The notes under the pieces are model-generated. The model did not search any database. It had not been told where the DNA came from and worked only from the letters and a program-made list of their open reading frames with translations. Below are positions 12,134-59,006 of a stretch of 64,000 nt of DNA, one piece after another; position 1 is the stretch's first letter; every line of letters begins with the position of its first letter. Position numbers and translations under genes: made by a program. Origin of the DNA: Achromobacter denitrificans NBRC 15125 (GTDB lineage: Bacteria; Pseudomonadota; Gammaproteobacteria; Burkholderiales; Burkholderiaceae_B); the NCBI RefSeq assembly GCF_001571365.1, contig NZ_BCTQ01000003.1:186001-250000 (forward strand), given 5' to 3'.

Positions 12134-12182
12134 GCCTGTCTCCTCTGCTGCCGGCGTTCGCGCGCCGGTCAGCCGCGGTGGT

Positions 12183-13613: not shown

Positions 13614-13644
13614 TGTCTGCTCCTCGTATTGGGTCGCTGATTGG

Positions 13645-14241: not shown

Positions 14242-14254
14242 ATCGTTGCCCGTC

Positions 14255-14770
14255 CTACTTGCTGAAGTTCTTGATGCCCAGCACGCGCTGGGAAATCACC
14301 ACGGCGACCGCGCGGTTCGAGTTGAACGCGAGCAGGCTGGCGGCGCGGACCGTCTCCGGCACGTCCTCGCCCCGCTCCACCCGCTGCACGTAGACGCCCG
14401 CGCCCTGGAGCGCGGCCTCGGCGGACTGGCCCATGGGGCATTGCCAGGGATTGAATTCTCCCCATTCGCCGCGCATGGTGACCAGGCAGAGAAAGGGCAT
14501 GCGGCATTCCTGGATCAGCGCGAGCATATTGATGCAGTTGCCCACGCCGCTGGACTGCATCAGCAGCACGCCCTTGGCGCCGCCGAGCCAGGCGCCGCCC
14601 AGCATGGCCACGCCCTCCTCCTCCGTGGTGAGGGAAATCGCCTCCACCTCCGCATCCGCCTCGAACAGCTTGATCAGCTGGCTGTGCCCCGCGTCGGGCA
14701 CGTAGGCCATCTGCGTGATCCCGGCTTCTTTCAAGTTTCGATAGACCAACTCGGGCCAACTCTCTGCCAT
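14255..14770 (-). CDS. ThDP-binding decarboxylase subunit, ComD/sulfopyruvate decarboxylase alpha-like
   Basis: A 171-residue subunit of the pyrimidine-binding (alpha) type. Recognisable segments are AYVPDAGHSQLIKLF (residues about 22-36), the catalytic Glu region SLTTEEEGVAMLGGAWLGG (about 46-64) and VLLMQSSGVGNCINML (about 68-83). These match the N-terminal half of sulfopyruvate/phosphonopyruvate decarboxylases. GGAGGCAGGG precedes the ATG. It sits 30 bases after the binding-protein gene and 13 before its partner subunit. As a heteromer with that partner it should form a 2-oxoacid decarboxylase in the cytosol. A stand-alone acetolactate-synthase-like function is unlikely because the protein is only one domain. 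Confidence 0.85.
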   Translation of the reverse strand: MAESWPELVYRNLKEAGITQMAYVPDAGHSQLIKLFEADAEVEAISLTTEEEGVAMLGGAWLGGAKGVLLMQSSGVGNCINMLALIQECRMPFLCLVTMRGEWGEFNPWQCPMGQSAEAALQGAGVYVQRVERGEDVPETVRAASLLAFNSNRAVAVVISQRVLGIKNFSK

Positions 14771-14800
14771 GATTCCCTGCCTCCGGTATGTGGATGAAAC

Positions 14801-27334: not shown

Positions 27335-27892
27335 ATGTCCCGCCCCGAAGCCCCCGCCGAGCCCGTCGAACCGATCATCCCCGCAGAAACCGATCCCGCC
27401 GTAAAAGTGCCGCTGGCCATCGAGGACTGGCTGGCCGTGATCCTGCTGGCCACCCTGGCCATCATTACCTTCCTGAACGTGCTGGTGCGCTATTTCACCG
27501 ACCAGTCGTTCGCGTGGACGGAAGAGATCTCGGTGTTCCTGCTGATCGTCCTGACCATGGCGGGCGGCAGCGTCGCCTTCGTGCGCAACCACCACATCCG
27601 CATCGAGATCCTGGCCGACAACGGCTCGCCGCGCCGCCAGCGCATCATGGCGCTGATCTCCAACGGCTGCGTCCTGGCGTTCTTCCTGCTGCTGACCGTG
27701 CTGTCGGTCAAGCTGGTGGCCGACGAATACATCTACGAAGAGACCTCCCCCGCCATCGGCGTGCCGACCTGGTGGTATTCGATCTGGCTGCCGGTCATGG
27801 CCGCGGCGATTTCGCTGCGCACCCTCGGCATCCTGCGCCGCATCGCGCGCGCGCCGCTGGCCGCCGACACGGCCCGGGGGGAACAGCCATGA
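27335..27892 (+). CDS. TRAP transporter small permease subunit (DctQ type)
   Basis: A 185-residue four-helix membrane protein. Helices are visible near residues 28-50 (EDWLAVILLATLAIITFLNVL), 62-84, 105-128 and 148-166, with the family signature LNVLVRYFTDQSFAWTEEIS and the loop FVRNHHIRIEIL. It pairs with the large permease encoded by the next gene, whose ATG overlaps its stop (ATGA). The first gene of a Q-M-P operon ending at a strong terminator. Substrates of TRAP systems are usually organic acids; none can be named here. Confidence 0.92.
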   Translation: MSRPEAPAEPVEPIIPAETDPAVKVPLAIEDWLAVILLATLAIITFLNVLVRYFTDQSFAWTEEISVFLLIVLTMAGGSVAFVRNHHIRIEILADNGSPRRQRIMALISNGCVLAFFLLLTVLSVKLVADEYIYEETSPAIGVPTWWYSIWLPVMAAAISLRTLGILRRIARAPLAADTARGEQP

Positions 27893-29187
27893 TCGCGGCC
27901 ATCCTCTTTACCGTCTTCATCGTGCTGATGCTGATCGGCGTGCCGGTCGGCGTGGCGCTGGGCCTGGGCGGCACGGTGGCGATCGTGCTGTCCAACCTGG
28001 ACACGCCCTGGTATGGCCTGTTGACGGTGCCGCAGAACTTCTACGCCGGCCTGGCGAAATACCCGCTGCTGGCCATCCCGATGTTCGTCCTGGTGGGCTC
28101 GATCTTCGACCGCTCCGGCGTGGCCAAGCGGCTGGTGGACTTCGCCATCGCCATCGTCGGGCGCGGCCCGGGCATGCTGCCGCTGGTGTCCATCGCGGTG
28201 GCCATGTTCCTGGGCGGGATCTCCGGCTCCGGCCCGGCCTGCGCGGCGGCGGTGGGCGCGGTGATGATCACCGCCATGTCGCGCGCCGGCTATCCCGGCT
28301 CGTTCTCGGCCGCCGTCGTGGCGGCCGGCGCCGCCACGGACATCCTGATCCCGCCGTCGGTCGCCTTCATCATCTATTCGGTGCTGGTGCCCGGCGCCTC
28401 GGTGCCCGCCCTGTTCGCCGCCGGCATGGTGCCCGGCATCCTGGCCGGCCTGGCGCTCATCATCCCGGCCGTGTGGCTGGCCCGCAAGCACAAGATGGGC
28501 GGCCTGGAAGCCCACCTGCCGCGCCCGCCCTTCTGGGCCAGCCTGCGCGAAGCCTCGTGGGGCCTGGCCGCGCCGGTCCTGATCCTGGGCGGGATGCGCA
28601 TGGGCTGGTTCACGCCCACGGAAGCGGCCGTGGTCGCGGTGTTCTACGGCCTGTTCGTCGGCATGTTCATCCACCGCAGCATCAAGCTGCGCGACCTGTT
28701 CACCATCTTGCGCGAGGCCGCCGAACTGTCCGCCGTGATCATGCTGGTGGTGACGCTGGCCGGCATCTTCGCCTGGGCGCTGTCCACGCTCAGCGTGATC
28801 GATCCGATCACGCACGCCATCGTCAACTCGGGCCTGGGCGAATGGGGCGTGCTGGCGCTCTTGATCCTGCTGCTGATGACCGTGGGCATGTTCCTGGACG
28901 GCATCTCCATCTTCCTGATCTTCGTGCCGCTGCTCATGCCCATCGCCAACGCCTATGGCTGGGATCCGGTGTGGTTCGGCGTGATCCTCACCCTGAAGGT
29001 GGCGCTGGGCCAGTTCACCCCGCCGCTGGCGGTGAACCTGATGGTGTCCTGCCGCATCGCCCGCGTGCCCATGGAATCCACGGTGCGCTGGGTGGTGTGG
29101 CTGCTGGGCGCGATGTTCCTGGTGCTGGTCGCGGTGCTGGTGTTCCCGCAGCTGGCGCTGTGGCTGCCGCACAAGCTGGGTTATTGA
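27889..29187 (+). CDS. TRAP transporter large permease subunit (DctM type)
   Basis: A 432-residue membrane protein with about 12 hydrophobic helices. It carries the DctM hallmarks: MLIGVPVGVALGLGG near the N-terminus, LAKYPLLAIPMFVLVGSIFD (about residues 53-72), GGISGSGPACAAAVGAVMI (about 104-122) and the DILIPPSVAFIIYSVL loop, with a second copy of the substrate-site pattern near the C-terminus (FTPPLAVNLMVSCRIA). It forms the proton- or sodium-coupled channel with the small subunit. Start overlaps the upstream stop, giving translational coupling. The solute receptor gene follows 62 bases later. Confidence 0.94.
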   Translation: MIAAILFTVFIVLMLIGVPVGVALGLGGTVAIVLSNLDTPWYGLLTVPQNFYAGLAKYPLLAIPMFVLVGSIFDRSGVAKRLVDFAIAIVGRGPGMLPLVSIAVAMFLGGISGSGPACAAAVGAVMITAMSRAGYPGSFSAAVVAAGAATDILIPPSVAFIIYSVLVPGASVPALFAAGMVPGILAGLALIIPAVWLARKHKMGGLEAHLPRPPFWASLREASWGLAAPVLILGGMRMGWFTPTEAAVVAVFYGLFVGMFIHRSIKLRDLFTILREAAELSAVIMLVVTLAGIFAWALSTLSVIDPITHAIVNSGLGEWGVLALLILLLMTVGMFLDGISIFLIFVPLLMPIANAYGWDPVWFGVILTLKVALGQFTPPLAVNLMVSCRIARVPMESTVRWVVWLLGAMFLVLVAVLVFPQLALWLPHKLGY

Positions 29188-29249
29188 GCAGGCGTTACGA
29201 GTACGCATTACACAACAACAGACAGACTTGCAAAGAGAGGAGACGCAAC

Positions 29250-30278
29250 ATGAAATTCCGCAACTTGATCGGCGCCGCCCTGTGCGCCGCGGCGGTGGTG
29301 GGCATGGCGCCCGCCCACGCGCAGAACTACAAGCCCGAGTACAAGCTGTCGATCGTCGTCGGCACCACCTTCCCGTGGGGCCAGGGCGCGGAAATCTGGT
29401 CCAACCTGGTCCGTGAGCGCACCCAGGGCCGCATCAACATCAAGGTGTATCCCGGCACCTCGCTGGTGCAGGGCGACCAGACCCGCGAATTCACCGCCAT
29501 CCGCCAGGGCGTGATCGACATGGCCGTGGGCTCCACCATCAACTGGTCGCCGCAGGTCAAGCAGCTGAACCTGTTCTCCCTGCCCTTCCTGATGCCCGAC
29601 TACGCCGCCATCGACGCGCTGGTGCAAGGCGACGTGGGCCGCGAAATGTTCAAGCTCATCGAAAAGGCGGGCGTCGTGCCGCTGGCCTGGGGCGAGAACG
29701 GCTACCGCCAGCTGAGCAACTCCAAGCACCAGATCAAGAAGCCCGAGGACATGAAGGGCATGAAGCTGCGCGTGGTGGGTTCGCCGCTCTACATCGACAC
29801 CTTCACCGCGCTGGGCGCCAACCCCACGCAGATGAGCTGGGCCGACGCGCAGCCCGCGCTGGCCAGCGGCGCCGTGGACGGCCAGGAAAATCCCCTGTCC
29901 ATCTACACCGGCTCCAAACTCTACACCGTGGGCCAGAAGAACCTGACCCTGTGGAACTACGTGGCCGACCCGCTGATCTTCGTGGTCAACCGCGAGGTCT
30001 GGAATTCCTGGTCCGAAAAGGACCGCGACATCGTGCGCCAGGCCGCGCTGGACGCCGCCAAGCAGCAGATCGTGATCGCCCGCAAGGGCGTGACGCCCGA
30101 GGATCCTTCGCTGCTGAAGGAGATCGAGGGCCACGGCGTCACCGTGACCTCGCTGTCCGCGGCCGACCACGAAGCCTTCGTGAAGATCACGAAGCCCGTC
30201 TATGACAAGTGGAAGAAGCAGATCGGCGAAGACCTGGTGAGCCTGGCCGAGAAGTCGATCGCCAACCGCAAGAAGTAA
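29250..30278 (+). CDS. TRAP transporter periplasmic solute receptor (DctP/TAXI-like DctP family)
   Basis: A 342-residue periplasmic receptor. Signal peptide ends at PAHAQ (about residue 24); the mature chain begins NYKPEYKLSIVVGTTFPWGQG. The ligand-anchoring Arg region characteristic of DctP proteins is in MKGMKLRVVGSPLYIDTF (about residue 171) and the AVDGQENPLSIY segment follows (about residue 209). AGAGAGGAGACGCAAC gives a strong ribosome site, fitting the excess of receptor over permease. The gene ends 98 bases before a factor-independent terminator. The receptor has no close marker that would give its ligand. Confidence 0.93.
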   Translation: MKFRNLIGAALCAAAVVGMAPAHAQNYKPEYKLSIVVGTTFPWGQGAEIWSNLVRERTQGRINIKVYPGTSLVQGDQTREFTAIRQGVIDMAVGSTINWSPQVKQLNLFSLPFLMPDYAAIDALVQGDVGREMFKLIEKAGVVPLAWGENGYRQLSNSKHQIKKPEDMKGMKLRVVGSPLYIDTFTALGANPTQMSWADAQPALASGAVDGQENPLSIYTGSKLYTVGQKNLTLWNYVADPLIFVVNREVWNSWSEKDRDIVRQAALDAAKQQIVIARKGVTPEDPSLLKEIEGHGVTVTSLSAADHEAFVKITKPVYDKWKKQIGEDLVSLAEKSIANRKK

Positions 30279-48440: not shown

Positions 48441-49502
48441 TCACGGCAGGTTTTCGCGGAAGATCACCTGGCTGCGGGCGAGCTCCACCCCGTTCATGGG
48501 GCTGCGCTTGTCGCGCAGATTGCAGAAAATGCGCACGCAGCTCATCAGCGCCTCCATCGGGCTTTGCGTGATGACCGCGTCCATGGTGCCGTCGATCAGC
48601 AGCGAGCGCGTGTCGGGCGTCAGGCCGTGGCCGATGAACACCACCCGGTGCTGCAGGCCCGCCTCTTTCAACGCCCGCGCCACGCCGTCCGACGCGCCGC
48701 CGATGTTGTAGATGCCGGCCAGTTGCGGATACTGCTCCAGCAATTGGCGCGTCTGTTCGTAGTTCCTCTGCGCGTCGTCGTAGCCTTCCCGCAAGTCCAC
48801 CACCTGCATCGCCTGGAACTGTTCCGCGTACAGCTGCAAAAAGCCGCCCTCGCGCTCTTCGTGCGCCCGGTAATGGCGCGACCCGGCGATCAGCGCCACG
48901 TGCGCCGCGCGCGAACCGATGAAGCGCGCGATCAGATACCCCGCGGTGCGGCCGGCGGCGCGGTTGTCCAGGCCCACGTAGGCCGCGCGCGCGCTGTTGG
49001 CGATGTCGGAAATCAGCGTCACCGTCGGCACGCCCCGCTGCGCGAGCGCGTCGACCGCTTCGCGCACCGTCGGATGTTCCAGCGCCATGAACGCGATGCC
49101 GTCCGCCCGCTTGCCGTGCTTGGCCAGCGCCTCGGCCAGCGCGTCGGGGTTGAAGCTCTCGACGTAATCGACCTGGCACTTGGCGTTGAGCGGCGCGAAG
49201 TGTTCCTGCGCATAGCTGACGGTATCGCCCAGCATGCGCAGGTAGCGGTTGCTGCCGCGCGGCAGCAGAAACACCAGGCGCATCGGCTCCGGCGCGGCGG
49301 CGAAACGGATGTCCTGCTCGGGCAGGTAATCCAGTTCGAGGGCGGCCTTGAAGACTTTCTGCGCGGTGCTGGCCCGCACCCCGGGACGGCGGTTCAGCAC
49401 GCGGTCGGCGGTGGCGGTGGAAACGCCCGCGCGCGCCGCCACGTCCGCCAGGCGCGCCAGCTTGCGTTCGGAAGGAGTTCGATTCACATCAAAAACCATC
49501 AT
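48441..49502 (-). CDS. LacI-family transcriptional regulator
   Basis: A 353-residue repressor with an N-terminal helix-turn-helix (ARLADVAARAGVSTATADRVLN, residues about 14-35; hinge helix HxxxRPGVRASTAQKVFKAA) and a periplasmic-binding-protein type effector domain (LVFLLPRGSNRYLRML, AYVGLDNRAAGRTAGYLIARF, IYNIGGASDGVARAL). The start is placed at MMVFDVNRTPSE because the HTH in LacI proteins begins within the first 20 or so residues; a longer frame to 49616 exists. It is divergent from the TRAP receptor gene and reads as the local controller of the TRAP/RuBisCO-like/kinase set. Effector probably the transported sugar acid or a derivative. Confidence 0.88.
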   Translation of the reverse strand: MMVFDVNRTPSERKLARLADVAARAGVSTATADRVLNRRPGVRASTAQKVFKAALELDYLPEQDIRFAAAPEPMRLVFLLPRGSNRYLRMLGDTVSYAQEHFAPLNAKCQVDYVESFNPDALAEALAKHGKRADGIAFMALEHPTVREAVDALAQRGVPTVTLISDIANSARAAYVGLDNRAAGRTAGYLIARFIGSRAAHVALIAGSRHYRAHEEREGGFLQLYAEQFQAMQVVDLREGYDDAQRNYEQTRQLLEQYPQLAGIYNIGGASDGVARALKEAGLQHRVVFIGHGLTPDTRSLLIDGTMDAVITQSPMEALMSCVRIFCNLRDKRSPMNGVELARSQVIFRENLP

Positions 49503-49592
49503 GAAAGAAGTTTGACGATGATAGCGCCTCTTCACTATTGTCCAGTCTGCCGCATGGGATTGGCGCTTTTGTGGCACATCAAAAGACATCAT
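49485..49592. promoter_or_regulatory. Paired 18-base sites, probable LacI-family operators
   Basis: CACATCAAAAACCATCAT (49485-49502) and CACATCAAAAGACATCAT (49575-49592) match at 16 of 18 positions and lie exactly 90 bases apart in the same orientation, in the gap between the LacI gene and the TRAP receptor gene. The first overlaps the regulator's own start codon, consistent with autorepression, the second lies 23 bases before the receptor ATG. Confidence 0.6.
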
Positions 49593-49614
49593 AACCACGA
49601 TTATGGAGACAACC

Positions 49615-50634
49615 ATGAAGCTGCTGACACGCCGCAGTGCCCTGCGCCGCCTTGGCGCGGTTCCCGCCCTAGCCTTCGCCAGCGGCTTCCCGCTGATCGC
49701 CCGCGCGGCCGACTACACGCTCAAGTACGGCAACAACCTGCCCGTCACCCATCCGCTGAACATCCGCGCCGAGGAAGCCGCGCAGCGCATCCTCAAGGAA
49801 AGCAACGGCCGCGTCGACATCAAGATCTTCCCCAACAACCAGCTGGGCGGGGACACGGACATGCTGGCCCAGGTGCGCTCGGGCGGCATCGATTTCTTCA
49901 CGCCCTCGGCGCTGGTGATCGCGACGCTGGTGCCGGTCGCGGCCATCAATGCCGTCGGCTTCGCCTTCAAGGACTACAACCAGGTGTGGAGCGCCATGGA
50001 CGGCGCGCTGGGCGCGCACGTGCGCGCCGCGATCGCGCAGCGCCGCCTCTACGCCTTCGAGAAAATGTGGGACAACGGCTTTCGCCAGACCACCAGCAGC
50101 AAGGCGCCCGTCAAGACGGCGGCCGACATGGAAGGCCTGAAGATCCGCGTGCCGGTGAGCTCGCTGCCCATCTCCATGTTCAAGGGCCTGGGCGCGGCGC
50201 CGGCCAGCCTGCAGTTCAGCGAGGTCTATTCGTCGCTCCAGACCAAGGTCGTGGACGCGCAGGAAAATCCGCTGCCCATCATCCAGGTGGCCAAGCTGTA
50301 CGAAGTGCAGAAATACTGCTCGCTCACCAACCACATCTGGGACGGCTACTGGTTCATCGCCAACGGCCGCATGTGGGAGGGCCTGCCGGAAGACCTGAAG
50401 ACGGTGGTGGCCCGCGGCATCAACGAGGCCGGCCTGGCGCAGCGCGAAGACATCAAGAAGCTCAACGCCTCGGTCCAGTCGGACCTGGAGGGCAAGGGCC
50501 TGCTCTTCAACCAGCCCTCGGCCGACAGCTTCCGCGAGCAGTTGCGCGGCGCCGGCTTCTACAAGGAATGGCAGGGCCGCTTCGGCAACGAGGCCTGGAC
50601 CCTGCTGGAGCAGGCCGTCGGCAAGCTGGCCTGA
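49615..50634 (+). CDS. TRAP transporter periplasmic solute receptor (DctP type)
   Basis: A 339-residue receptor. The signal peptide MKLLTRRSALRRLGAVPALA ends at IARAAD near residue 36 and has a twin-arginine-like pair. Mature features: YTLKYGNNLPVTHPLNIRAEE, MEGLKIRVPVSSLPISMFKGLG with the ligand-binding Arg (about residue 180), and KVVDAQENPLPIIQVAKLYE. GGAGACAACC precedes the chosen ATG. It is the first gene of a plus-strand operon with a fused permease, VOC, RuBisCO-like and kinase genes. DctP relatives with this MKG-R signature bind carboxylates, so an acid sugar or other organic acid is likely. Confidence 0.93.
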   Translation: MKLLTRRSALRRLGAVPALAFASGFPLIARAADYTLKYGNNLPVTHPLNIRAEEAAQRILKESNGRVDIKIFPNNQLGGDTDMLAQVRSGGIDFFTPSALVIATLVPVAAINAVGFAFKDYNQVWSAMDGALGAHVRAAIAQRRLYAFEKMWDNGFRQTTSSKAPVKTAADMEGLKIRVPVSSLPISMFKGLGAAPASLQFSEVYSSLQTKVVDAQENPLPIIQVAKLYEVQKYCSLTNHIWDGYWFIANGRMWEGLPEDLKTVVARGINEAGLAQREDIKKLNASVQSDLEGKGLLFNQPSADSFREQLRGAGFYKEWQGRFGNEAWTLLEQAVGKLA

Positions 50635-50643
50635 GGTCGCGCC

Positions 50644-52524
50644 ATGTCCTCCCTGTCCGCTCCGCACGCCGCGCCGCCCCTGCTGCCGGCCCACCCCTTG
50701 CGCCGGGCCGCCGGCGCGCTAGACGGGCTGCTGGGCTGCGTGGTCGAACACGCGGCCGCGGCCATCGTGCTGGTCGAGATCGCGGTGCTGTTCGCCGGCG
50801 TGGTGGCGCGCTACGCGTTCCACAGCCCCCTGGTCTGGTCCGACGAGCTCGCCTCCATCCTGTTCCTGTGGCTGTCCATGCTGGGCGCGGTCGTCGCGCT
50901 GCGCCGCGGCGAGCACATGCGCATGACGGCGCTGGTCAACAACGTGAGCCCCGCGCGCCGCGCGCAGCTGGAAACGGCGGCCCTGGCCGCCTCGCTCGCG
51001 TTCCTGGCGCTCATCCTGCTGCCGGCCGTCGAGTACGCGCATGAAGAGCATTTCATCATCACGCCCGCGCTGGAACTGAGCAACGCCTGGCGCGCCTCCG
51101 CCATCCCCGTCGGCATGGGGTTGATGGCCGTCGTGGCCCTGCTGCGGCTGGCGCGCACCCAGACCCTGCCCCAGATGCTGGCGGCGCTGGCGGGCGCCGC
51201 GGCCGTGGTGGCGCTCTTCTGGCTGGCGCAGCCGCTCTTCTCCACGCTGGGCAAGCTGAACCTGCTGATCTTCTTCGTCGGCATCGTGGCGGCCACGGTC
51301 TTCGCCGGCGTGCCCATCGCGTTCTCGTTCGCGCTGGCCACGTTCTCGTACCTGGTGCTGACCACCAATACCCCCATGGTGGTGATGGTGGGCCGGCTGG
51401 ACGAAGGCATGTCGCACCTGATGCTGCTGGCCGTGCCCCTCTTCATCTTCCTGGGCTCGCTCATCGAGATGACGGGCATGGCGCGCGCCATGATCCAGTT
51501 CCTGGCCAGCCTGCTGGGCCACGTGCGCGGCGGACTGTCCTACGTGCTGATCGGCGCCATGTACCTGGTGTCCGGCATTTCCGGGTCCAAGATCGCCGAC
51601 ATGGCGGCCATCGCGCCGGTGCTGTTCCCCGAGATGAAAAAGCGCGGCGCCAAGCCGGGCGACCTGGTGGCGTTGCTGTCGGCCACCGGCGCGCAGACCG
51701 AAACCATCCCGCCGTCCATCGTGCTGATCACCATCGGTTCGGTGACGGGCGTGTCCATCGCCGCCCTCTTCACCGGCGGCCTGCTGCCGGCCGTGGTGCT
51801 GGGCCTGGCGCTGTGCTCGGTGGTGTGGTGGCGCTACCGCAAGGAAGACCTGAGCCTGGCCCAGCGCTTCACGGCCAAGGAGATCGGCCGCTACTTCGTC
51901 ATCGCGCTCCCCGCCGTGGCCCTGCCCTTCGTGATCCGCGCCGCGGTCGTCGAAGGCGTGGCGACGGCCACCGAAGTCTCCACCATCGGCATCGTGTATT
52001 CGGCCGTCGTGGGCCTGCTGATCTACCGGCGCTTCGACTGGGCGCGGCTCAAGCCCATGCTGATCGAGACAGCCTCGCTGTCGGGCGCCATCATGCTGAT
52101 CGTGGGCTGCGCCACGGCCATGGCCTGGGCGCTGACGCAATCGGGATTCTCGGGCGACCTGGCCCGGATGATGGGCGGCATGCCTGGCGGGGCCTACGGG
52201 TTCCTGGCGGTCTCCATCGTGGCCTTCATCATCCTGGGCAGCGTGCTGGAAGGCATCCCCGCCATCGTGCTGTTCGGCCCGCTGCTGTTCCCGATCGCCG
52301 TCCAGGCCGGCGTGCACGAAGTCCATTACGCCATGGTCGTGATCTTCGCGATGGGCATCGGCCTGTTCGCGCCGCCCTTCGGCGTGGGCTACTACGGCGC
52401 CTGCGCCATCAGCCGCGTCGACCCCAACGAAGGGATCGGCCCGATCTGGGGCTATGTGGCCGCGCTGCTGGTCGGCTTGATCGTCGTCGCCGCCTTCCCC
52501 TGGTTCTCCATCGGTTTCCTGTGA
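50644..52524 (+). CDS. TRAP transporter fused permease (DctQ-DctM fusion)
   Basis: A 626-residue membrane protein combining the small and large permease subunits. Residues about 30-170 are DctQ-like: AIVLVEIAVLFAGVVARYAF, LVWSDELASILFLWLSMLGA, RRGEHMRMTALV. Residues about 205-620 are DctM-like: NLLIFFVGIVAATVFAGVPI, LAVPLFIFLGSLIEMTGMAR, YLVSGISGSKIADMAAIAP and ETIPPSIVLITIGSVTGVS. The fusion differs from the separate Q and M genes near 27.3 kb, so the two TRAP systems are not recent duplicates. It starts 9 bases after the receptor stop. A 22-base palindrome follows its stop. Confidence 0.93.
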   Translation: MSSLSAPHAAPPLLPAHPLRRAAGALDGLLGCVVEHAAAAIVLVEIAVLFAGVVARYAFHSPLVWSDELASILFLWLSMLGAVVALRRGEHMRMTALVNNVSPARRAQLETAALAASLAFLALILLPAVEYAHEEHFIITPALELSNAWRASAIPVGMGLMAVVALLRLARTQTLPQMLAALAGAAAVVALFWLAQPLFSTLGKLNLLIFFVGIVAATVFAGVPIAFSFALATFSYLVLTTNTPMVVMVGRLDEGMSHLMLLAVPLFIFLGSLIEMTGMARAMIQFLASLLGHVRGGLSYVLIGAMYLVSGISGSKIADMAAIAPVLFPEMKKRGAKPGDLVALLSATGAQTETIPPSIVLITIGSVTGVSIAALFTGGLLPAVVLGLALCSVVWWRYRKEDLSLAQRFTAKEIGRYFVIALPAVALPFVIRAAVVEGVATATEVSTIGIVYSAVVGLLIYRRFDWARLKPMLIETASLSGAIMLIVGCATAMAWALTQSGFSGDLARMMGGMPGGAYGFLAVSIVAFIILGSVLEGIPAIVLFGPLLFPIAVQAGVHEVHYAMVVIFAMGIGLFAPPFGVGYYGACAISRVDPNEGIGPIWGYVAALLVGLIVVAAFPWFSIGFL

Positions 52525-52528
52525 GGCC

Positions 52529-52550
52529 CGCGGCCCGGATCCGGGCCGCG
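52529..52550. repeat. Perfect 22-base palindrome after the TRAP permease gene
   Basis: The arms CGCGGCCC and GGGCCGCG flank GGATCC, all perfectly symmetrical, four bases after the permease stop and 42 bases before the VOC gene. With no T-run it is more likely an RNA-stabilising or partial attenuating hairpin between transport and enzyme genes than a full terminator. Confidence 0.6.
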
Positions 52551-52592
52551 CGCTCCCCGCACTCTCCAACCCTACTCCTGCAAAGATCCATC

Positions 52593-53132
52593 ATGAGTCG
52601 TTTCCTGGGCGAAATCCGCCAACTCGGTTATGTAGTGCGCGACATCGAAGCCGCCATGGACTACTGGAGCACCACGCTGGGCGTGGGCCCCTGGTACTAC
52701 AACCCGCGCGTGCCCATCGTGAACTACCAGTACGACGGCGCCAGCCACGAGCCCCACAACTCGGTGGCCCTGGCCAATTCCGGCTTCGTGCAGGTCGAGC
52801 TGATCCAGACGCGCAACGACGTGCCCTCCATGTACCGCGACTTCCTGCAAGCCGGACGCACCGGCCTGCAGCACGTGGCCTACTGGACCCAGGACTACGA
52901 CGCCGACCTGGAACGCCTGCTGGCGCAGGGCTTCAAGCCCAAGATGAGCGGCGAAGTGGGCGAAAAGGGCCGCTTCATCTACTTCGACACCGAATACCAC
53001 CCCGGCACCGTGATCGAACTGTCCGAAGTGGCCGGTCCCAAGGGCCGCCTGTTCGACCTGATCCGCGACAGCGCCAGCGGCTGGGACGGCAAGGACCCCG
53101 TCCGCCCCTTCCCCGACCTGAGCAAGCTCTGA
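52593..53132 (+). CDS. VOC-superfamily (glyoxalase/dioxygenase fold) protein
   Basis: A 179-residue vicinal-oxygen-chelate fold protein. The first betaalphabetabetabeta unit begins IRQLGYVVRDIEAAMDYWST, and the second starts LQHVAYWTQDYDADLERLLA; ligand candidates are His in QHVAYW and Glu in PGTVIELSEVAG. In RuBisCO-like pathways such a small metal enzyme could be an isomerase or epimerase, and many relatives are annotated only as glyoxalase/bleomycin resistance. It sits between the transporter and the RuBisCO-like gene (33 bases upstream of the latter). The reaction is unknown. Confidence 0.8.
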   Translation: MSRFLGEIRQLGYVVRDIEAAMDYWSTTLGVGPWYYNPRVPIVNYQYDGASHEPHNSVALANSGFVQVELIQTRNDVPSMYRDFLQAGRTGLQHVAYWTQDYDADLERLLAQGFKPKMSGEVGEKGRFIYFDTEYHPGTVIELSEVAGPKGRLFDLIRDSASGWDGKDPVRPFPDLSKL

Positions 53133-53164
53133 CGCGCCCCTTTCCCACGCAGCCATCCGCCACC

Positions 53165-54442
53165 ATGAATTCCCAATCGTTTAGCGCCACCTACCTGATC
53201 GAAACCCCGATGGATCCCGCGCAGGTCGCGGAAGTCATGGCCGGCGAGCAATCCTGCGGCACCTTCACCCGGGTGCAGGGCGAAACCGATGAGCTGCGGG
53301 CCCGCGCCCGCGCGCGGATCGAATCGATCGAAACGCTGGAAACCGTCGCCGCGCCCAGCCTGCCCAACGCCTGGCTGGCGCGCCAGCCGGGCGGCATGCC
53401 CGCCTCGTACCGGCGCGCCCGCGTGCGCATCGCCTTCCCCGTCGCCAACGTCGGCGCCAACCTGCCCACGCTGGCGGCCACGGTGGGCGGAAACCTGTAC
53501 GACCTGGGCGAGACCACCGGCCTGCGCCTGGAAAGCCTGGAGCTGCCCGCGAACTACCGCGCCCAGTTCGACCTGCCCCGGGCCGCCATCGCCGGCACCC
53601 GCGAGCTGACGGGCGTGGCGAGCGGCCCGCTGGTCGGCACCATCATCAAGCCCAACGTCGGCTTGTCGCCCGAACAGACGGCGCATCTGGTCGCCCAGTT
53701 GTGCGCGGCCGGCGTCGACTTCATCAAGGACGACGAGGTCAGCGCCAACCCGGCCCATGCGCCGCTGGCGCAACGCGTGGCCGCCGTGATGGCGGTCGTG
53801 CGCGCCCACCGCGAGCGCACCGGCCGCCAGGTCATGGTGGCGTTCAACATCAGCGACGAGACCGACGCCATGCGCCGCCATGCCGAGCTGATCGAGCGCG
53901 AGGAAGGCACCTGCGTGATGGCCAGCCTGAACCACTGCGGCTTCTCCGCCATCCAGACCCTGCGCCGCAGCACCCCGCTGGCGCTGCACGGCCACCGCAA
54001 CGGCTACGGCGCGCTCTCGCGCCATCCGCTGCTGGGCATGGGCTTCCAGGCCTACCAGACGCTGTGGCGCCTGGCCGGCGTGGACCACATGCACGTGCAC
54101 GGCCTGCAAGGCAAATTCTCGCAGGACGACCGCGAAGTGATCGATTCGGCACGCGACTGCCTGGCGCCGCTCACGCCCGGCATCGACGACGCCGTCATGC
54201 CCGCCTTCTCGTCCGGCCAATGGGCCGGCACCGTGCCCGCCACCTGGCGCGCGGTGCGCAGCGACGACCTGATGTTCATGTCCGGCGGCGGCATCCTGGC
54301 CCATCCGGACGGCCCGGCCGCCGGCGTGCTGAGCATCCGCCAGGCCTGGCAGGCCATGCGCGACGGTCAGTCGCTGGAAGACTTCGCGCGCCAGGCGCCC
54401 GAACTGCAACGCGCCATCGACTTCTTCGGCAGCCGCGCATGA
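53165..54442 (+). CDS. RuBisCO-like protein (form IV), possible 3-oxo-isoapionate-4-phosphate-type enzyme
   Basis: A 425-residue RuBisCO-superfamily TIM-barrel protein. Visible catalytic positions: Lys in GTIIKPNVGLSP (about residue 162, the Lys175 equivalent), the carbamylated Lys and acidic Mg ligands in GVDFIKDDEV (Lys about 188), HGHRNGYGAL (about 275) and the phosphate loop GGGILAHPDGPAAG. The loop-6 Lys of true RuBisCO is absent; the region reads SSGQWAGTVP, so carboxylation of ribulose bisphosphate is not expected. The next gene, overlapping by ATGA, encodes a DUF1537 acid-sugar kinase. In D-apionate pathways the OiaK kinase and RuBisCO-like OiaX or OiaT act in sequence on 3-oxo-isoapionate; the same reaction is a reasonable hypothesis here, not a proven one. 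Confidence 0.88.
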   Translation: MNSQSFSATYLIETPMDPAQVAEVMAGEQSCGTFTRVQGETDELRARARARIESIETLETVAAPSLPNAWLARQPGGMPASYRRARVRIAFPVANVGANLPTLAATVGGNLYDLGETTGLRLESLELPANYRAQFDLPRAAIAGTRELTGVASGPLVGTIIKPNVGLSPEQTAHLVAQLCAAGVDFIKDDEVSANPAHAPLAQRVAAVMAVVRAHRERTGRQVMVAFNISDETDAMRRHAELIEREEGTCVMASLNHCGFSAIQTLRRSTPLALHGHRNGYGALSRHPLLGMGFQAYQTLWRLAGVDHMHVHGLQGKFSQDDREVIDSARDCLAPLTPGIDDAVMPAFSSGQWAGTVPATWRAVRSDDLMFMSGGGILAHPDGPAAGVLSIRQAWQAMRDGQSLEDFARQAPELQRAIDFFGSRA

Positions 54443-55788
54443 ACGACGCCGAACGCCGCCCCGCCGCGCCGCGGGTGGCCTGGTACGGCGACGATTTCAC
54501 CGGCGCCACCGACACGCTGGCCGAGGTGTCCCGCGCGGGACTGCGCAGCCTGCTGTTCCTGGGCGTGCCCACGTCGGAGCAGCTGCGCCGCGCCGGCGCG
54601 CTGGACGCCATCGGCATCGCGGGCGCGGCGCGCGGCATGGCGCCCACGGAGATGCAGGCGGAACTGGCCGGCGTGGGCCGCTTCCTGGCCGGCACCGGCA
54701 TCCGAGTGCTGCACTACAAGTGCTGCTCCACCTTCGACAGCGCGCCCCACGTGGGCAGCATCGGCGCCGCCGTGCGCGAACTGCGCCGCCACATGCCCAA
54801 TCCCTTCGTGCCCATCGTGGGCGGGCAGCCCAGCATCGGGCGCTATTGCAGCTTCGCCCAGCTGTTCGCGCGCGCCGGCACGGCTCCCGAGATCCACCGC
54901 ATCGACCGCCATCCGGTCATGAGCGCCCATCCCGTCACGCCCATGCACGAGGCGGACCTCCGCCTGCACCTCGGCGCGCAAGGCCTGGCGGACGTCCGCT
55001 CGGTGCCGCATACGGATTACCCGCGCCTGCGCCAGGCCGCCGATGCGCCCCTGCTGGAAGCGTGGATCGACCGAATCCTCGACACCACCGACGGCCCCGC
55101 GCTGCTGGACCTGGTCGACGATGAACAGCTTGCCGTGATCGGGCGCCTGATCTGGCGCGCCGCCTCCTGTCTGCCGCTGCTGGCCCTGGGCCCGAGCAGT
55201 GTGCAGCAGGCGCTGGCCCGCGCCATGCCGGGTCCGCGCACGAATCTCGGCGCCGCGCCCCTGCCGGCGGCCGCCGGTCCCGTGCTGGTGATGGCAGGCA
55301 GCCTGTCGCCCGTCACCGCGCGGCAGATCGCCGCCTGCCAACGGTACGCCCGGCAGCCGCTGAGCGTCGCGCGAATGCTCTCGGAACCCGGCTACGCGGC
55401 CGAACAGGCGCGGCAGGCCGTGGCCCAGCTGACCCAGGGCAAGAACGTGCTGGTGCATACCGACAGGCCCGCGCAAGCGCCCGGCACGCAGCACACCGCG
55501 GCCACGGCCCGCGCCACGGCGCAGCTCGCGGCCGCCATCGTGCAGGGCGCCGGCCAGGCCGGCGCCCGGCTCGGCCGGGTCGGCATCGCCGGCGGCGACA
55601 CCTCCAGCCAGGCCACGCTGGCGCTCGGCCTGTGGGGCCTGGCCTTCCGCTGCGTGCTCGCGCCCGGCGTCACCGTCAGCGTCGCCCGCAGCGACGACCC
55701 GCTCATCGACGGCATGGAACTGATGCTCAAGGGCGGCCAGATGGGCGGCGACTTCCTCTTCGACGACCTGGCGCTGGGCTGGGGCTGA
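54439..55788 (+). CDS. Four-carbon acid sugar kinase family protein (DUF1537)
   Basis: A 449-residue ATP-dependent sugar-acid kinase. The N-terminal DUF1537 motif RVAWYGDDFTGATDTLAEVS is at residues 12-31, substrate-side Lys and Cys are in HYKCCSTFDSAPHVGSIG (about residues 93-110), and the C-terminal nucleotide-binding domain shows VGIAGGDTSSQATLALG and LMLKGGQMGGDFLFDDL near residues 375-445. DUF1537 kinases phosphorylate 3-oxo-tetronates and, as OiaK, 3-oxo-isoapionate. Coupling to the RuBisCO-like gene by a four-base overlap points to the latter type of substrate (inference). It is the last gene of the LacI-regulated operon. Confidence 0.88.
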   Translation: MNDAERRPAAPRVAWYGDDFTGATDTLAEVSRAGLRSLLFLGVPTSEQLRRAGALDAIGIAGAARGMAPTEMQAELAGVGRFLAGTGIRVLHYKCCSTFDSAPHVGSIGAAVRELRRHMPNPFVPIVGGQPSIGRYCSFAQLFARAGTAPEIHRIDRHPVMSAHPVTPMHEADLRLHLGAQGLADVRSVPHTDYPRLRQAADAPLLEAWIDRILDTTDGPALLDLVDDEQLAVIGRLIWRAASCLPLLALGPSSVQQALARAMPGPRTNLGAAPLPAAAGPVLVMAGSLSPVTARQIAACQRYARQPLSVARMLSEPGYAAEQARQAVAQLTQGKNVLVHTDRPAQAPGTQHTAATARATAQLAAAIVQGAGQAGARLGRVGIAGGDTSSQATLALGLWGLAFRCVLAPGVTVSVARSDDPLIDGMELMLKGGQMGGDFLFDDLALGWG

Positions 55789-56000: not shown

Positions 56001-57746
56001 ATGAGCAAGCGTCGCGCAACACCCCCACCCGACAAGACCGCCCAGGCCCTGGACACGGCGGCCAAGGCGGCGCTGGCGCGCTGGACGGCCTCTTTGTCGC
56101 CCGCCGCCGGCCTGCTGGCCTGGACGGACTGGGCCGCCCACCTCGCCAACGCCCCCGGCAAGCGCCTCGCCCTGACCGAATTGGCGCTGCACCAGGCCGG
56201 CCTGCTGGGGCAATACCTGCTGGCCCGCCTCGTCGCGGGCGACGCGGCCTCCGCCGCTCCCCCCGCGGACCGGCGCTTCGCCGATCCCGCTTGGGGCCGC
56301 TGGCCCTTCAACCTCTACCGCCAGCAATTCGAGCTGGCGCAGCAATGGTGGGAAGCCGCCACCAGCGACGTGCCCGGCGTGGATCCGCACCATGCCCAGG
56401 TGGCGGCCTTCGCCGCGCGGCAATGGCTGGACGTGCTGTCGCCGGGCAACGCGATGCTGACCAATCCCGTGGTCATCCGCCAGACCTGGCAGGAAGGCGG
56501 CGCCAATCTCGTGCGCGGGGCGCGCAACGCCGCCGAGGACGCGATGCGCGAACTGGGCGGCCAGCCGCCGGCGGGCGCCGAGCATTTCCGCCCGGGCAAG
56601 GAAGTCGCCGTCACGCCGGGCAAGGTGGTGTTCCGCAACCGCCTGATCGAATTGCTGCAATACGAGCCCGCGACCGGCGCCGTCCACCCCGAGCCCGTCC
56701 TGGTGGTGCCGGCCTGGATCATGAAGTACTACATCCTGGATCTCTCGCCGCACAACTCGCTCATCCGCTACCTGGTCGGCCAGGGCTACACGGTGTTCTG
56801 CGTCTCATGGAAGAACCCCGACGCGTCCTACCGCGACCTGGGCATGGACGACTATCTGGAGCTGGGCATCGCCGCCGCGCTGGACGCGGTGGAGACGATC
56901 CTGCCGCGCCGCCGCGTGCATGCCACCGGCTATTGCCTGGGCGGCACGCTGCTGGCCATCGCCGCGGCCGCCATGGCGCGCGACGGCGACCACCGGCTCG
57001 CCAGCCTGTCGCTCTTCACCGCCCAGACGGACTTCAGCGAACCCGGCGAGCTGGGCCTGTTCATCGACGAAAGCCAGGTCAGCATGCTGGAAGCGCAAAT
57101 GGCGCGCACCGGCTACCTGCGCGCCGGCCAGATGGCGGGCGCGTTCCAGATGCTGCGCTCCTACGACCTGTTGTGGTCGCGCATGGTCAACGATTACCTG
57201 CTGGGGCAGCGCCGCCCCATGTCCGACCTGATGGCCTGGAACGCCGACGCCACGCGCATGCCCGCGCGCATGCACGGGCAGTATCTGCGCCGCCTATTCC
57301 TGGACAACGACCTCGCCCAGAACCGCTACGAAGTCGGCGGCCGGCCCGTCATGCTCGGCGACCTGCGCCTGCCCATTTTCTCGGTCAGCACCGAGACCGA
57401 CCACGTCGCGCCCTGGCGCTCGGTCTACAAGCTGCATTACCTCAGTCCGGCGCCCCTGACCTTCGTGCTGACCACCGGCGGCCACAACGCCGGCATCGTG
57501 AGCGAGCCCGGCCACCCGCGCCGCGCCTACCGCATCCTGTGCCGCGCGGCGAACCACGCCAGCCTCACCGCCGACGACTGGCTGGCCGAAGTTCCGCAGC
57601 AGGAAGGCTCGTGGTGGCCCGCCTGGGTGGAATGGCTGGACAGCCATTCCGGCCCCGCCGACGTCAAGCCGCCCGCCATGGGCGCGCCGCGCCGCAATCT
57701 CCCGGTGCTGGGCCCCGCTCCCGGCACCTACGTGTTGGAGAAATAG
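56001..57746 (+). CDS. phaC: Poly(3-hydroxyalkanoate) synthase, class I type
   Basis: A 581-residue PHA synthase. The conserved N-terminal PhaC domain holds DPAWGRWPFNLYRQQF (about residue 92) and TNPVVIRQTWQEGGANLVRG (about 154). The catalytic Cys lies in the lipase-box-like ATGYCLGGTLLAIA (about residue 312), with Asp in STETDHVAPWRSVYKLHYL (about 467) and His in TTGGHNAGIV (about 497). This makes granule polymer from 3-hydroxyacyl-CoA. A phasin-like gene and phaB follow; beta-ketothiolase (phaA) is not in the window. The 55789-56000 gap upstream is GC-rich and shows no distinct promoter. Confidence 0.93.
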   Translation: MSKRRATPPPDKTAQALDTAAKAALARWTASLSPAAGLLAWTDWAAHLANAPGKRLALTELALHQAGLLGQYLLARLVAGDAASAAPPADRRFADPAWGRWPFNLYRQQFELAQQWWEAATSDVPGVDPHHAQVAAFAARQWLDVLSPGNAMLTNPVVIRQTWQEGGANLVRGARNAAEDAMRELGGQPPAGAEHFRPGKEVAVTPGKVVFRNRLIELLQYEPATGAVHPEPVLVVPAWIMKYYILDLSPHNSLIRYLVGQGYTVFCVSWKNPDASYRDLGMDDYLELGIAAALDAVETILPRRRVHATGYCLGGTLLAIAAAAMARDGDHRLASLSLFTAQTDFSEPGELGLFIDESQVSMLEAQMARTGYLRAGQMAGAFQMLRSYDLLWSRMVNDYLLGQRRPMSDLMAWNADATRMPARMHGQYLRRLFLDNDLAQNRYEVGGRPVMLGDLRLPIFSVSTETDHVAPWRSVYKLHYLSPAPLTFVLTTGGHNAGIVSEPGHPRRAYRILCRAANHASLTADDWLAEVPQQEGSWWPAWVEWLDSHSGPADVKPPAMGAPRRNLPVLGPAPGTYVLEK

Positions 57747-57799
57747 CAGCCCGCCTGCAAGCAGGCCCTCCTTTTCACGCAACATTGCAAGGAAGGATC

Positions 57800-58276
57800 A
57801 TGAAACAAACCACAGCGATTCCCAAGAGTCCCCCCGCCGACCCGGGCTCCCTGCTGGGCGCCAATCTCGCCTATTGCCAGCGCCTGACGTCGCTGGCCCA
57901 GGAAAGCCAGGCCCGCTGGGCCCAGTTGGGGCAGCAGATCTGGGGCGAACAGGCCACGCTCTGGCAGAGCGCGTTCGCGCCGCTGCCGGAAACCCCCAGC
58001 TGGAAAAGTCTGGCGCCCGCCCTCGGCGAGGCCGCGCGGCGCCAATGGCAGGCGCGCCTGACCACCGCCGAGGCCGTCATGCATGCCGCCCTGTCGGAAC
58101 AGGCCACGCTCGCCGTGGGGCTGGCCGAAGCCGCGAACACCTGGTGCCGCGACAGCGCCTGCGCCTGCAACGGCCTGACCACCCATCCCGCCGCGAACGC
58201 CTGGACGGCCGCGGCCGAACAGATGGCCGCGACGGCCCGGTCGCTGCAAGCCCGGGGAGACCGGCATGGAAGCTAA
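57800..58276 (+). CDS. Small phasin-like protein between phaC and phaB
   Basis: A 158-residue protein, Ala- and Gln-rich and mostly helical (LLGANLAYCQRLTSLAQESQ, ARRQWQARLTTAEAVMHAA, AANAWTAAAEQMAATARSLQ). No signal peptide or domain is recognised. The repeated amphipathic helices and location between phaC and phaB fit a PHA granule-associated protein, but sequence similarity to known phasins is weak. GGAAGG precedes the ATG by five bases. Its last 11 bases overlap the phaB start, so the genes are coupled. Unusual for a phasin are several Cys residues (CRDSACACNG), which could bind a metal or form a disulphide. Confidence 0.65.
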   Translation: MKQTTAIPKSPPADPGSLLGANLAYCQRLTSLAQESQARWAQLGQQIWGEQATLWQSAFAPLPETPSWKSLAPALGEAARRQWQARLTTAEAVMHAALSEQATLAVGLAEAANTWCRDSACACNGLTTHPAANAWTAAAEQMAATARSLQARGDRHGS

Positions 58277-59006
58277 ACGCACCGCGCTGGTCACCGGCGG
58301 AGCGGGCGCGCTGGGCCAGGCCATGGCCCACGCGCTGCACGACGCCGGCCACAAAGTCATCCTGACCTGCCACCGCCGCAACGCGTCGATAGAAGCCTGG
58401 CTGGACACGCAGCGCGCCGACGGGCGCGAGTTCCTGGCGTATCCGGTGGACGTGGCCGACCACGAGTCCTGCCGGCAATTGGCCGCCACCCTGGCCGCCG
58501 ACGGGCACGCGATCGACATCCTGGTGAACAACGCCGGCGTCACGCGCGACGCCAGCCTCCGGAAGATGCCATTCGACGACTGGAACACCGTGCTGCGCAC
58601 CAACCTGGATTCCATGTTCAACATGACCCAGCCCTTGCTGGATGGCATGGTGGAGCGCGGCTGGGGCCGCATCGTCAACATCTCTTCGGTCAACGGCTTC
58701 AAGGGCGCGTTCGGCCAGACCAACTACGCGGCGGCCAAGGCCGGCATCCACGGGTTCACCAAGTCGCTCGCGCTGGAGGTCGCGCGCAAGGGCGTCACCG
58801 TCAACACGGTGTCGCCCGGCTACCTGGACTCGCCCATGGTGGCGGCCGTCGCGCCCGACGTGCTGCGCGACAAGGTCCTGCCGCAGATCCCCGTCGGCCG
58901 CCTGGGCAGGCCGGAGGAGATCGCCGCCCTCGTCGTGTTCATCTGCAGCGAGCTGGCGGGCTTCATGACCGGCAGCAACGTGGCCATGAACGGCGGCCAG
59001 TATTGA
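58266..59006 (+). CDS. phaB: Acetoacetyl-CoA reductase (SDR family)
   Basis: A 246-residue short-chain dehydrogenase. NADPH-binding ALVTGGAGALGQAMAHAL (residues 6-23), NNAGVTRDASLRKM (about 87-100), catalytic Ser in NISSVNGFKGAFGQTNYAAAKAG with Tyr and Lys in YxxxK (about 150-154). The NNAGVTRD signature and PHA neighbours support reduction of acetoacetyl-CoA to (R)-3-hydroxybutyryl-CoA. It overlaps the phasin-like gene by 11 bases and ends 16 bases before the convergent peptidase gene stop. Confidence 0.9.
   Translation: MEAKRTALVTGGAGALGQAMAHALHDAGHKVILTCHRRNASIEAWLDTQRADGREFLAYPVDVADHESCRQLAATLAADGHAIDILVNNAGVTRDASLRKMPFDDWNTVLRTNLDSMFNMTQPLLDGMVERGWGRIVNISSVNGFKGAFGQTNYAAAKAGIHGFTKSLALEVARKGVTVNTVSPGYLDSPMVAAVAPDVLRDKVLPQIPVGRLGRPEEIAALVVFICSELAGFMTGSNVAMNGGQY

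Follow-up and report, generated by a model that had tools for sequence, protein, structure and literature searches.

Organisation of the operon

The window, i.e., the whole stretch of 64,000 nucleotides that was analysed, carries a module of six genes encoding a LacI-family regulator, a TRAP receptor, a fused TRAP permease, a VOC protein, a RuBisCO-like protein (RLP) and a DUF1537 kinase (Table 1). The genes, their order and their coordinates, as given in the initial annotation, are borne out by gene calls and Pfam, and so is the overlap of the kinase and RLP genes, which share 4 bases. For LacI, the listed start at 49616 probably overextends the gene at its 5′ end. The operon in the window has no PdxA gene.

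Table 1. Features of the operon (positions in the window).
Feature	Position	Strand	Basis
LacI-family regulator, sugar-binding sensor domain	48441..49487 (GTG) or 48441..49502 (ATG)	-	Pfam LacI 48 bits, Peripla_BP_4 133 bits
Operator-like repeat CATCAAAAACCATCA, copy 1	49487..49501	.	core motif upstream of LacI orthologues
Operator-like repeat CATCAAAAGACATCA, copy 2	49577..49591	.	end 24 bases before dctP
TRAP solute receptor DctP	49615..50634	+	PF03480 244 bits
Fused TRAP permease DctQ-DctM (DctQM)	50644..52524	+	PF04290 and PF06808
VOC-superfamily protein, putative metal-dependent isomerase	52593..53132	+	Q10, E69, H94, E142
RuBisCO-like protein (RLP), uncharacterised clade	53165..54442	+	PF00016 228 bits
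DUF1537-type acid-sugar kinase (SBD_N + NBD_C)	54439..55788	+	PF07005, PF17042

Conservation of the gene set

The best 80 of at least 555 relatives of the window RLP served as RLP-baited loci. The VOC gene lies directly 5′ of the RLP gene, on the same strand, in all 80 and less than 200 bp away in 77; a kinase is present in 78 and a LacI orthologue in 77, with all five misses on contigs of 4.8–11.4 kb. Such conservation of the gene set is well beyond chance. Gene labels in the flanks of loci were assigned by tblastn, and those of the ABC importer and some other genes in the 80-locus survey come from reading the sequence without a family scan.

A second set of 36 VOC-baited loci combines 8 matches above 310 bits, 12 at E 1e-80 and 15 and 4 at 1e-75, minus three repeats, and apparently overlaps the first, at least two genomes being in both (L048, L058). 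The first VOC search, which gave the 8 matches and was run at a looser limit than the others, also returned 19 weaker ones, excluded from the 36, with flanks viewed for 13. The RLP adjoins the VOC in 8/8 matches above 310 bits in the phylum sample, and an RLP match is also found on 18 of 19 plasmid records bearing a VOC of at least 67% identity; VOC relatives of 50–55% identity occur in unrelated gene settings. The operon is common in Achromobacter and related bacteria, with the VOC marker in 38 of 43 Achromobacter genomes and the RLP clade found in Burkholderiales and Alphaproteobacteria. No paper on a VOC/RLP/kinase operon was found in a search of the open literature.

Regulator and receptor

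Of 98 upstream regions of LacI orthologues, 80 contain the repeat core CATCAAAA/TTTTGATG (mean after shuffling 1.0/98), and 29 of the 98 contain it at least twice; these regions are related sequences, and the conservation of the repeat partly reflects descent. What the regions have in common is a direct repeat; a palindrome search upstream of LacI in 21 loci gave nothing common to most.

The closest solved relative of DctP by sequence is PDB 4OAN (447 bits), placed just outside the module's DctP clade in a quick tree without bootstrap. We take 4OAN to have been modelled with 2-acetolactate, a dideoxy analogue of 3-oxo-isoapionate (2-hydroxymethyl-2,4-dihydroxy-3-oxobutanoate). The portion of PMC5812351 drawn on here includes 2-acetolactate among new TRAP ligands, and 4OAN is unnamed in that portion; a search of the open literature gave no paper mentioning 4OAN.

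The RuBisCO-like protein

Two activities of RLPs frame the comparison: OiaT is a 3-oxo-isoapionate-4-phosphate transcarboxylase/hydrolase, and OiaX a 3-oxo-isoapionate-4-phosphate decarboxylase. The active site was read from an alignment of 13 RLPs and 3 genome-derived RuBisCOs, using spinach RuBisCO residue numbers mapped by motif. The KDDE motif is kept in the window RLP, as the initial annotation had it (K188, D190, E191), but its statement that the loop-6 lysine is lacking was mistaken: K317 corresponds to Lys-334, and all 16 aligned rows have this lysine. Equivalents of E60, T65, N123, K175, H294, R295, H327, S379, G381, G403 and G404 are also kept, and differences occur at those of T173, K177, W66, L335 and G380. 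The loop-6 sequence is HGLxGK or similar in module RLPs and NGLxNK in the RLPs of apionate loci.

One alternative, which we consider improbable, is that the RLP is a plain OiaX-like decarboxylase yielding erythrulose phosphate, the VOC protein handling a product or side product or being an oxygenase rather than an isomerase of the imported acid. The best NCBIfam model for the window RLP is indeed that of OiaX (NF042437, 425.8 bits), though no OiaT model was matched in the scan. However, this score is below the cut-off of 700, and the changes in the two OiaX rows compared (E60D, N123G, H327Q, S379C/G) are missing from the window RLP, which has E28, N110 and H310. On these residues, which do not favour decarboxylation of the OiaX type, we rejected an OiaX-type active site; the active site resembles that of the OiaT-type RLPs of apionate loci, which retain the catalytic residues altered in the OiaX rows. 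Methionine salvage, named at the outset as the placement that would speak against the whole reading, was checked and rejected: the RLP is not the enolase MtnW, with 123.1 bits to TIGR03332 against a cut-off of 513.6.

In a tree of 38 rows representing 37 different proteins (the window entered twice, as WINDOW and L102), module RLPs form a separate clade (support 100/100) outside that of RLPs from ApnO-bearing loci; the sister relation between the module clade and the apionate-locus clade is weak (89/59). Among solved structures, the one nearest to the window RLP in sequence is PDB 3NWR (“A rubisco-like protein”), presumably from Burkholderia fungorum (664 bits, residues 4–425), and the record name returned states no function. 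The searches made found no assigned function for the module's RLP clade.

The kinase

The window kinase also stands in a clade of its own (100/100). It scores 281.7 bits against the OiaK model NF042436, below the cut-off of 700, which is a strict one, because three kinases of apionate loci also miss it (417–473 bits). Since kinase and RLP fall into clades of their own and the kinase is far from OiaK, both may have another substrate.

The VOC protein

Glyoxalase-I/epimerase-type VOC proteins have a metal site of four ligands (Q/H, E/Q, H, E). In a 31-row alignment, E69, H94 and E142 are kept in every row and Q10 in all 23 rows that reach its position, making these conserved residues putative metal ligands. 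The nearest fold to the VOC model is 3GM5, a putative methylmalonyl-CoA epimerase; below it, epimerases and dioxygenases rank equal, with hydroxymandelate synthase and HPPD at 11.3. An isomerase can therefore not be read from the fold alone, and the tie favours the decarboxylase alternative. Methylmalonyl-CoA epimerase itself was rejected, the fold being alike but the score against TIGR03081 only 23.9 bits (cut-off 114.95). Among the best 120 of 5902 VOC homologue matches, no characterised relative is named.

Exchange of downstream enzymes behind the VOC gene

Across the 36 VOC-baited loci the VOC is constant while the downstream enzymes vary: 26 have the module RLP and kinase, three an OiaT-type pair, three a combination of OiaK-like kinase, PdxA and aldolase, and four none that we recognised. 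At L176, L233 and L234, the VOC is paired with an RLP and kinase of apionate-locus lineages. The RLP and kinase of L176 group with those of ApnO-bearing loci and its VOC and DctP lie inside the module clades; from this placement, the VOC product should be what an apionate-type kinase and RLP accept. The VOC and DctP trees and the swap-locus tree are quick ones without bootstrap; in the last, ten rows are labelled “APN”, but the sequence retrieved around the locus contains an ApnO-like gene only for L118, L121, L160, L161, L162 and L220, and none for L157, L158, L159 and L163.

At L150 and L209–L211, the VOC occurs with an OiaK-like kinase, PdxA and a DeoC-family aldolase. The L150-type PdxA passes the general PdxA model and fails that of D-threonate 4-phosphate dehydrogenase. 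Elsewhere the L150-type kinase adjoins an RLP: 398 genomes gave 17 matches at E 1e-90, in 16 genomes, and all 17 have an RLP beside them. In both the VOC and DctP trees, the sister of L150 is an Azospirillum locus that carries an RLP. This back end might decarboxylate its substrate to erythrulose 1-phosphate, which would then be cleaved to DHAP and formaldehyde. That an aldolase and a dehydrogenase family able to lead to decarboxylation replace the RLP here is a further point for an OiaX-like decarboxylase in the module. Retention of the VOC where the RLP is gone, on the other hand, counts against it, because a VOC that persists in loci without an RLP is independent of the RLP product.

Among the swap loci, the orthologous LacI-TRAP-VOC front is kept only in L176 and L150. 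The TRAP systems of L233 and L234 are different ones (27–31% identity), the VOCs of L233, L234 and L209–L211 lie outside the module's VOC clade, and no LacI match was found at L209–L211. Taken as sequence evidence, the back-end changes point to 3-oxo-isoapionate or something similar as the putative kinase substrate.

Relation to D-apionate and hamamelonate-type routes

In the D-apionate pathway, 3-oxo-isoapionate is normally made by the NAD-dependent oxidoisomerase ApnO, which we take to be the PGDH_C-domain protein. It is very improbable that the operon serves an ordinary D-apionate pathway with lactonase and oxidoisomerase encoded elsewhere in the genome. In favour are the relatedness of kinase and RLP to OiaK and OiaT/OiaX and the few VOC genomes that carry ApnO elsewhere: in 18 searched, it was found in G299 and G382, with a weak match in G357, and in the swap genome G847 it shares a contig with the VOC locus, at a distance of about 34 kb. 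Yet ApsD-, ApnL- or ApnO-like genes are present in none of the 80 RLP-baited loci, and one ApnO-like query has no match in the whole window genome, although it matches the apionate-locus genomes G091, G167, G299 and G627; we rejected distant apionate genes on this genome-wide result. The same query finds nothing in the other two of the three swap genomes (G217, G723). The absence of the oxidoisomerase noted in the initial annotation thus extends to the genome for this query, and that of the lactonase holds within the 80 loci. Ancylobacter oerskovii carries both the module and a full apionate locus, so the inputs of the two should differ.

The same logic could apply to another 2-C-branched acid, of greater length or different configuration, such as a keto acid of the hamamelonate type (2-C-hydroxymethyl pentonate), on which the RLP would act as an oxygenase or transcarboxylase. 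We consider this reading unlikely, although the separate clades of RLP and kinase agree with it. The stretch SGQWAG is likewise common to the module RLP and the SDR- or hydrolase-linked RLPs of L117, L119 and L122, but not to apionate-locus RLPs. As described in the part of PMC8914248 used here, an Ochrobactrum RLP performs the final step of D-hamamelose breakdown, giving 3-phosphoglycerate and glycolate; the part of PMC10176493 used also cites an RLP of this pathway, the source cited for it being Kim 2018. The module, compared by description only, resembles that pathway in having an RLP at the end of a branched-sugar route, and we would guess that L117, L119 and L122, which combine an RLP and a kinase with dehydrogenases, may be of the D-hamamelose kind. 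Against a hamamelonate-type acid, the swap loci employ an apionate-type RLP and kinase, an apionate-type lactonase is found in none of the 80 loci, and only 12 have a dehydrogenase gene between those of LacI and the receptor.

Proposed route

Our leading reading, held tentatively at close to an even chance, is that the operon serves uptake and breakdown of a branched keto sugar acid, C5 or much like it, through a VOC isomerase, the kinase and the RLP, with the substrate, the VOC reaction, the position phosphorylated, the RLP products and indeed all activities predicted from sequence. The LacI protein would sense the solute or a product and release the promoter, and the TRAP system would import an already oxidised branched acid. 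The VOC protein, as a glyoxalase-I/epimerase-type metal enzyme, would isomerise it without a redox step to 3-oxo-isoapionate or a near analogue, so that two enzymes of D-apionate breakdown, the lactonase and the NAD-dependent oxidoisomerase, would be bypassed. The kinase would then phosphorylate the terminal hydroxyl, and the RLP would cleave the resulting beta-keto acid phosphate; an OiaT-like cleavage into 3-phosphoglycerate and glycolate is the most likely. Speaking for this reading are the constant pairing of VOC and RLP, the exchanged back ends, the ApnO query without a match in the window genome, G217 and G723, the catalytic residues shared with apionate-locus RLPs, the VOC fold with its putative metal ligands, and the similarity of the receptor to 4OAN. 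Weighing against it are the separate kinase and RLP clades, the different loop 6, the uneven front ends of the swap loci, ApnO elsewhere in a few VOC genomes, the co-occurrence of module and apionate locus in A. oerskovii, the four VOC-baited loci with no recognised back end, VOC relatives in unrelated settings, the tie of folds, and the position of 4OAN outside the DctP clade. It is possible, though somewhat doubtful, that LacI-TRAP-VOC is an undescribed entry route by which an oxidised branched acid other than D-apionate reaches the 3-oxo-isoapionate node, a VOC isomerase replacing the NAD-dependent oxidoisomerase, with at least three interchangeable back ends (module RLP and kinase; OiaT-type RLP and kinase; OiaK-like kinase, PdxA and DeoC-family aldolase).

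The single catabolic route of dedicated uptake, VOC, kinase and RLP, related to the OiaK/RLP apionate branch, that was claimed for this locus is supported and probable. Given the back-end changes, the claim of a new pathway and substrate probably survives for the acid taken up and the VOC reaction and not for the whole pathway; the module is probably a variation on the known branch. A specific, testable role is hereby proposed for an RLP clade to which our searches assign none. If true, it would mean a new reaction for the VOC superfamily, wider functions of RuBisCO-like proteins, and a branched acid that soil- and plant-associated bacteria encounter so frequently that a dedicated operon is retained.

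Comparison with known systems

With the D-apionate OiaK/OiaT system the module shares a kinase-RLP pair in which RuBisCO catalytic residues are kept, and in three loci the pair behind the VOC is itself of the apionate type; it differs in having a VOC, in the separate RLP and kinase clades, and in the lack of apionate genes within the 80 loci. OiaX belongs to the same RLP superclade, and the window RLP is 45% identical to Paracoccus OiaX, but the two part in model score and at the E60, N123 and H327 equivalents altered in the OiaX rows. The D-threonate pathway combines a kinase with a PdxA-type dehydrogenase, a pairing seen in the back end of L150 and L209–L211 and not in the window operon; the L150 kinase, in contrast to that pathway's, scores 473 bits against the OiaK model and 64 against the D-threonate kinase model.

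Results

The six-gene operon of the window, which clusters genes for a LacI-type regulator, a TRAP receptor, a fused permease, a VOC-superfamily protein (VOC, a putative metal-dependent isomerase), a RuBisCO-like protein (RLP) and a DUF1537-type kinase, is real, conserved and self-contained, and is most likely catabolic. The reported overlap of the RLP and kinase genes holds and spans four bases. The surrounding 6.7 Mb genome contains one RuBisCO-family locus (whole genome, E 0.001), both PF00016 matches being pieces of a single open frame; judged by RLP, its closest relatives among the matches listed are Achromobacter species. Scored for the VOC marker, 38 of 43 genomes of that genus carry it. 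The three polyhydroxyalkanoate genes 3′ of the operon, whose synthase-like member scores under the NCBIfam class I cut-off, recur in this arrangement only in locus L001 among the gene strings inspected, and were therefore excluded from the unit.

Features of the window, with positions and strands
Feature	Position	Strand
LacI-type regulator		minus
TRAP receptor		plus
Fused TRAP permease		plus
VOC		plus
RLP		plus
DUF1537-type kinase		plus
CATCAAAAnnCATCA repeat, one copy	49487-49501	
CATCAAAAnnCATCA repeat, other copy	49577-49591	
PHA synthase-like gene, Pfam-unmatched small protein, short-chain dehydrogenase; directly downstream of operon	56001-59006	same as operon
Cluster of 3-hydroxyisobutyrate-type dehydrogenase, aldehyde dehydrogenase, periplasmic binding protein; also thiamine-diphosphate enzyme domain adjoining short unmatched gene	11219-16012	
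Autotransporter, 1787 aa; ESPR signal, PATR repeats, beta-domain	17407-22770	
Second TRAP transporter-like set, three genes (judged from length and sequence)	27335-30278	

A scan of species genomes baited with the RLP gave at least 555 relatives, and among the best 80 loci the VOC lies 5′ of the RLP on the same strand in every case, within 200 bases in 77. Kinase (78) and LacI (77) are nearly as constant, and the five misses all fall on contigs of 4.8-11.4 kb. Transporter type is variable: a TRAP receptor is matched in 64 of these 80, and in 12 sequence inspection points to a probable ABC importer of the polar-amino-acid type, sited between the LacI and VOC genes; a short-chain dehydrogenase sits between LacI and receptor in 12. 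Apionate reference genes match none of the 80.

In a maximum-likelihood tree of 71 RLP rows, the 38 VOC-associated rows, which represent 37 different proteins, all fall into one clade (100/100), and the VOC-association label changes once, against a shuffled mean of 23.8. OiaX rows form a separate clade. RLPs from apionate-gene loci make up a third group of 14 rows, nearest to the VOC-associated clade with weak support (89/59). Membership of the window RLP in OiaX was rejected on that separate clade and on differing active-site residues, and membership in the OiaT-like clade on the VOC-associated rows' own clade; checked against methionine salvage, it is not MtnW either.

We take the 14-row group as putatively OiaT-like because several of its loci hold ApsD-, ApnL- and ApnO-like genes (demonstrated for part of the group), because Ancylobacter oerskovii, a Xanthobacter relative, has a full apionate-type locus, and because homologues of the Ancylobacter RLP bear the name 3-oxoisoapionate-4-phosphate transcarboxylase/hydrolase (7 of 120 listed, one naming source; another source gives it to 1 of 120 listed homologues of the window RLP). 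These gene names are our reading of the loci: the ApsD-like protein matches GFO_IDH_MocA, the ApnL-like gene has no Pfam match, and the PGDH_C-domain protein is presumably ApnO. PMC6302742 attributes decarboxylation and transcarboxylation/hydrolysis of 3-oxo-isoapionate 4-phosphate to one RLP each from Agrobacterium and Xanthobacter, which we read as respective.

The initial annotation held that the loop-6 Lys was missing; when 13 RLPs are aligned with 3 genome-derived RuBisCOs, however, K317 takes the Lys-334 position, where all 16 rows have lysine. In the window RLP the two metal-binding acids and the carbamate lysine are likewise retained, as are equivalents of E60, T65, N123, K175, H294, R295, H327, S379, G381, G403 and G404 (motif-mapped spinach RuBisCO numbers). 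Both OiaX rows are changed at E60 (D), N123 (G), H327 (Q) and S379 (C or G). Loop 6 of the window RLP is unlike that of apionate-locus RLPs.

Baiting with the VOC (8 phylum matches above 310 bits, 12 of 198 and 15 of 219 genomes in the families of genomes G217 and G382, and 4 of 240 in the class of the latter) yielded 36 typed loci, three repeats counted once. The RLP and kinase are of the VOC clade in 26; in three (L176, L233, L234) the VOC adjoins an RLP and kinase of apionate-locus lineages; three (L209-L211), with neither RLP nor LacI match, combine VOC and related TRAP with a kinase resembling OiaK, a member of the PdxA family and an aldolase of the DeoC/LacD family; and four (L208, L235-L237) have no recognised back end. 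Among 19 plasmid records with a VOC of at least 67% identity, 18 also contain an RLP match, and in the other, L150 of Azospirillum thermophilum, LacI, TRAP and VOC adjoin the kinase-PdxA-aldolase set. A DeoR regulator is part of L150 (1-8543) and L209-L211, all lacking an RLP match.

Discussion

Constant VOC and changing back ends make the function of the VOC-associated RLP clade directly testable. L176 is the strongest swap: its VOC and receptor nest in the module's own clades (quick trees), its RLP (row L095) shares a starred subclade of five rows with L093 and L094, both from ApnO-bearing loci, and its kinase groups with those of ApnO-bearing L160 and L220 (90/90) within a 9-row clade (100/99), apart from the 34 VOC-module kinases (100/100). 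L150 is sister to the RLP-bearing Azospirillum locus L113 in VOC and DctP quick trees. L233 and L234, whose RLP and kinase fall with the apionate-type group in quick trees, are weaker, since each has another kind of TRAP system (27-31% identity) and their VOCs, like those of L209-L211, lie outside the module's VOC clade. The PdxA-locus kinase type gave 17 matches in 16 of 398 genomes (E 1e-90), all directly adjoining an RLP; therefore, the kinases behind the VOC belong to the RLP-partner family at every typed back end. L150 and L209-L211 possibly represent a second route from the same intermediate to DHAP.

The direct repeat CATCAAAAnnCATCA lies upstream of the LacI or receptor gene. Of 98 upstream regions, 80 contain its core (mean after shuffling, 1.0), an enrichment that partly reflects descent among related sequences. 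L176 and L150 share the core with the window, which suggests that they respond to the same kind of signal.

By sequence, the closest solved relative of the window receptor is 4OAN (447 bits; up to about 66% identity to module receptors), which we take to be modelled with 2-acetolactate; this compound is 3-oxo-isoapionate minus its two primary hydroxyls. A quick tree places 4OAN directly beside the module DctP clade rather than within it, close to receptors of the RLP-kinase loci L157 and L166. A passage of the review PMC5812351 counts 2-acetolactate among new TRAP ligands; 4OAN is not named there. Kinship and ligand would thus support the substrate class, short of proof.

The operon is a related, variant form of the OiaK/RLP apionate branch; we found no description of a VOC-RLP-kinase operon in the open-access library searched. 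Activities of VOC, kinase and RLP are predictions from sequence. Because window kinase and RLP each fall in a separate clade and the RLP has a different loop 6, their substrate may be related to yet distinct from that of apionate loci; that Ancylobacter carries both the VOC module and the apionate system also suggests that the inputs of the two differ. For the RLP, whose products are the least certain step, the active site leads us to favour OiaT-like cleavage; an oxygenase or decarboxylase reaction is also possible.

The RLP-kinase loci L166, L157 and L159 hold one or two short-chain dehydrogenases and window-related TRAP parts, the VOC being unmatched; they possibly oxidise a reduced branched acid instead. 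VOC relatives of 50-60% identity occur in other gene settings (L131-L139, L148, L149, L235-L237), some near short-chain dehydrogenases.
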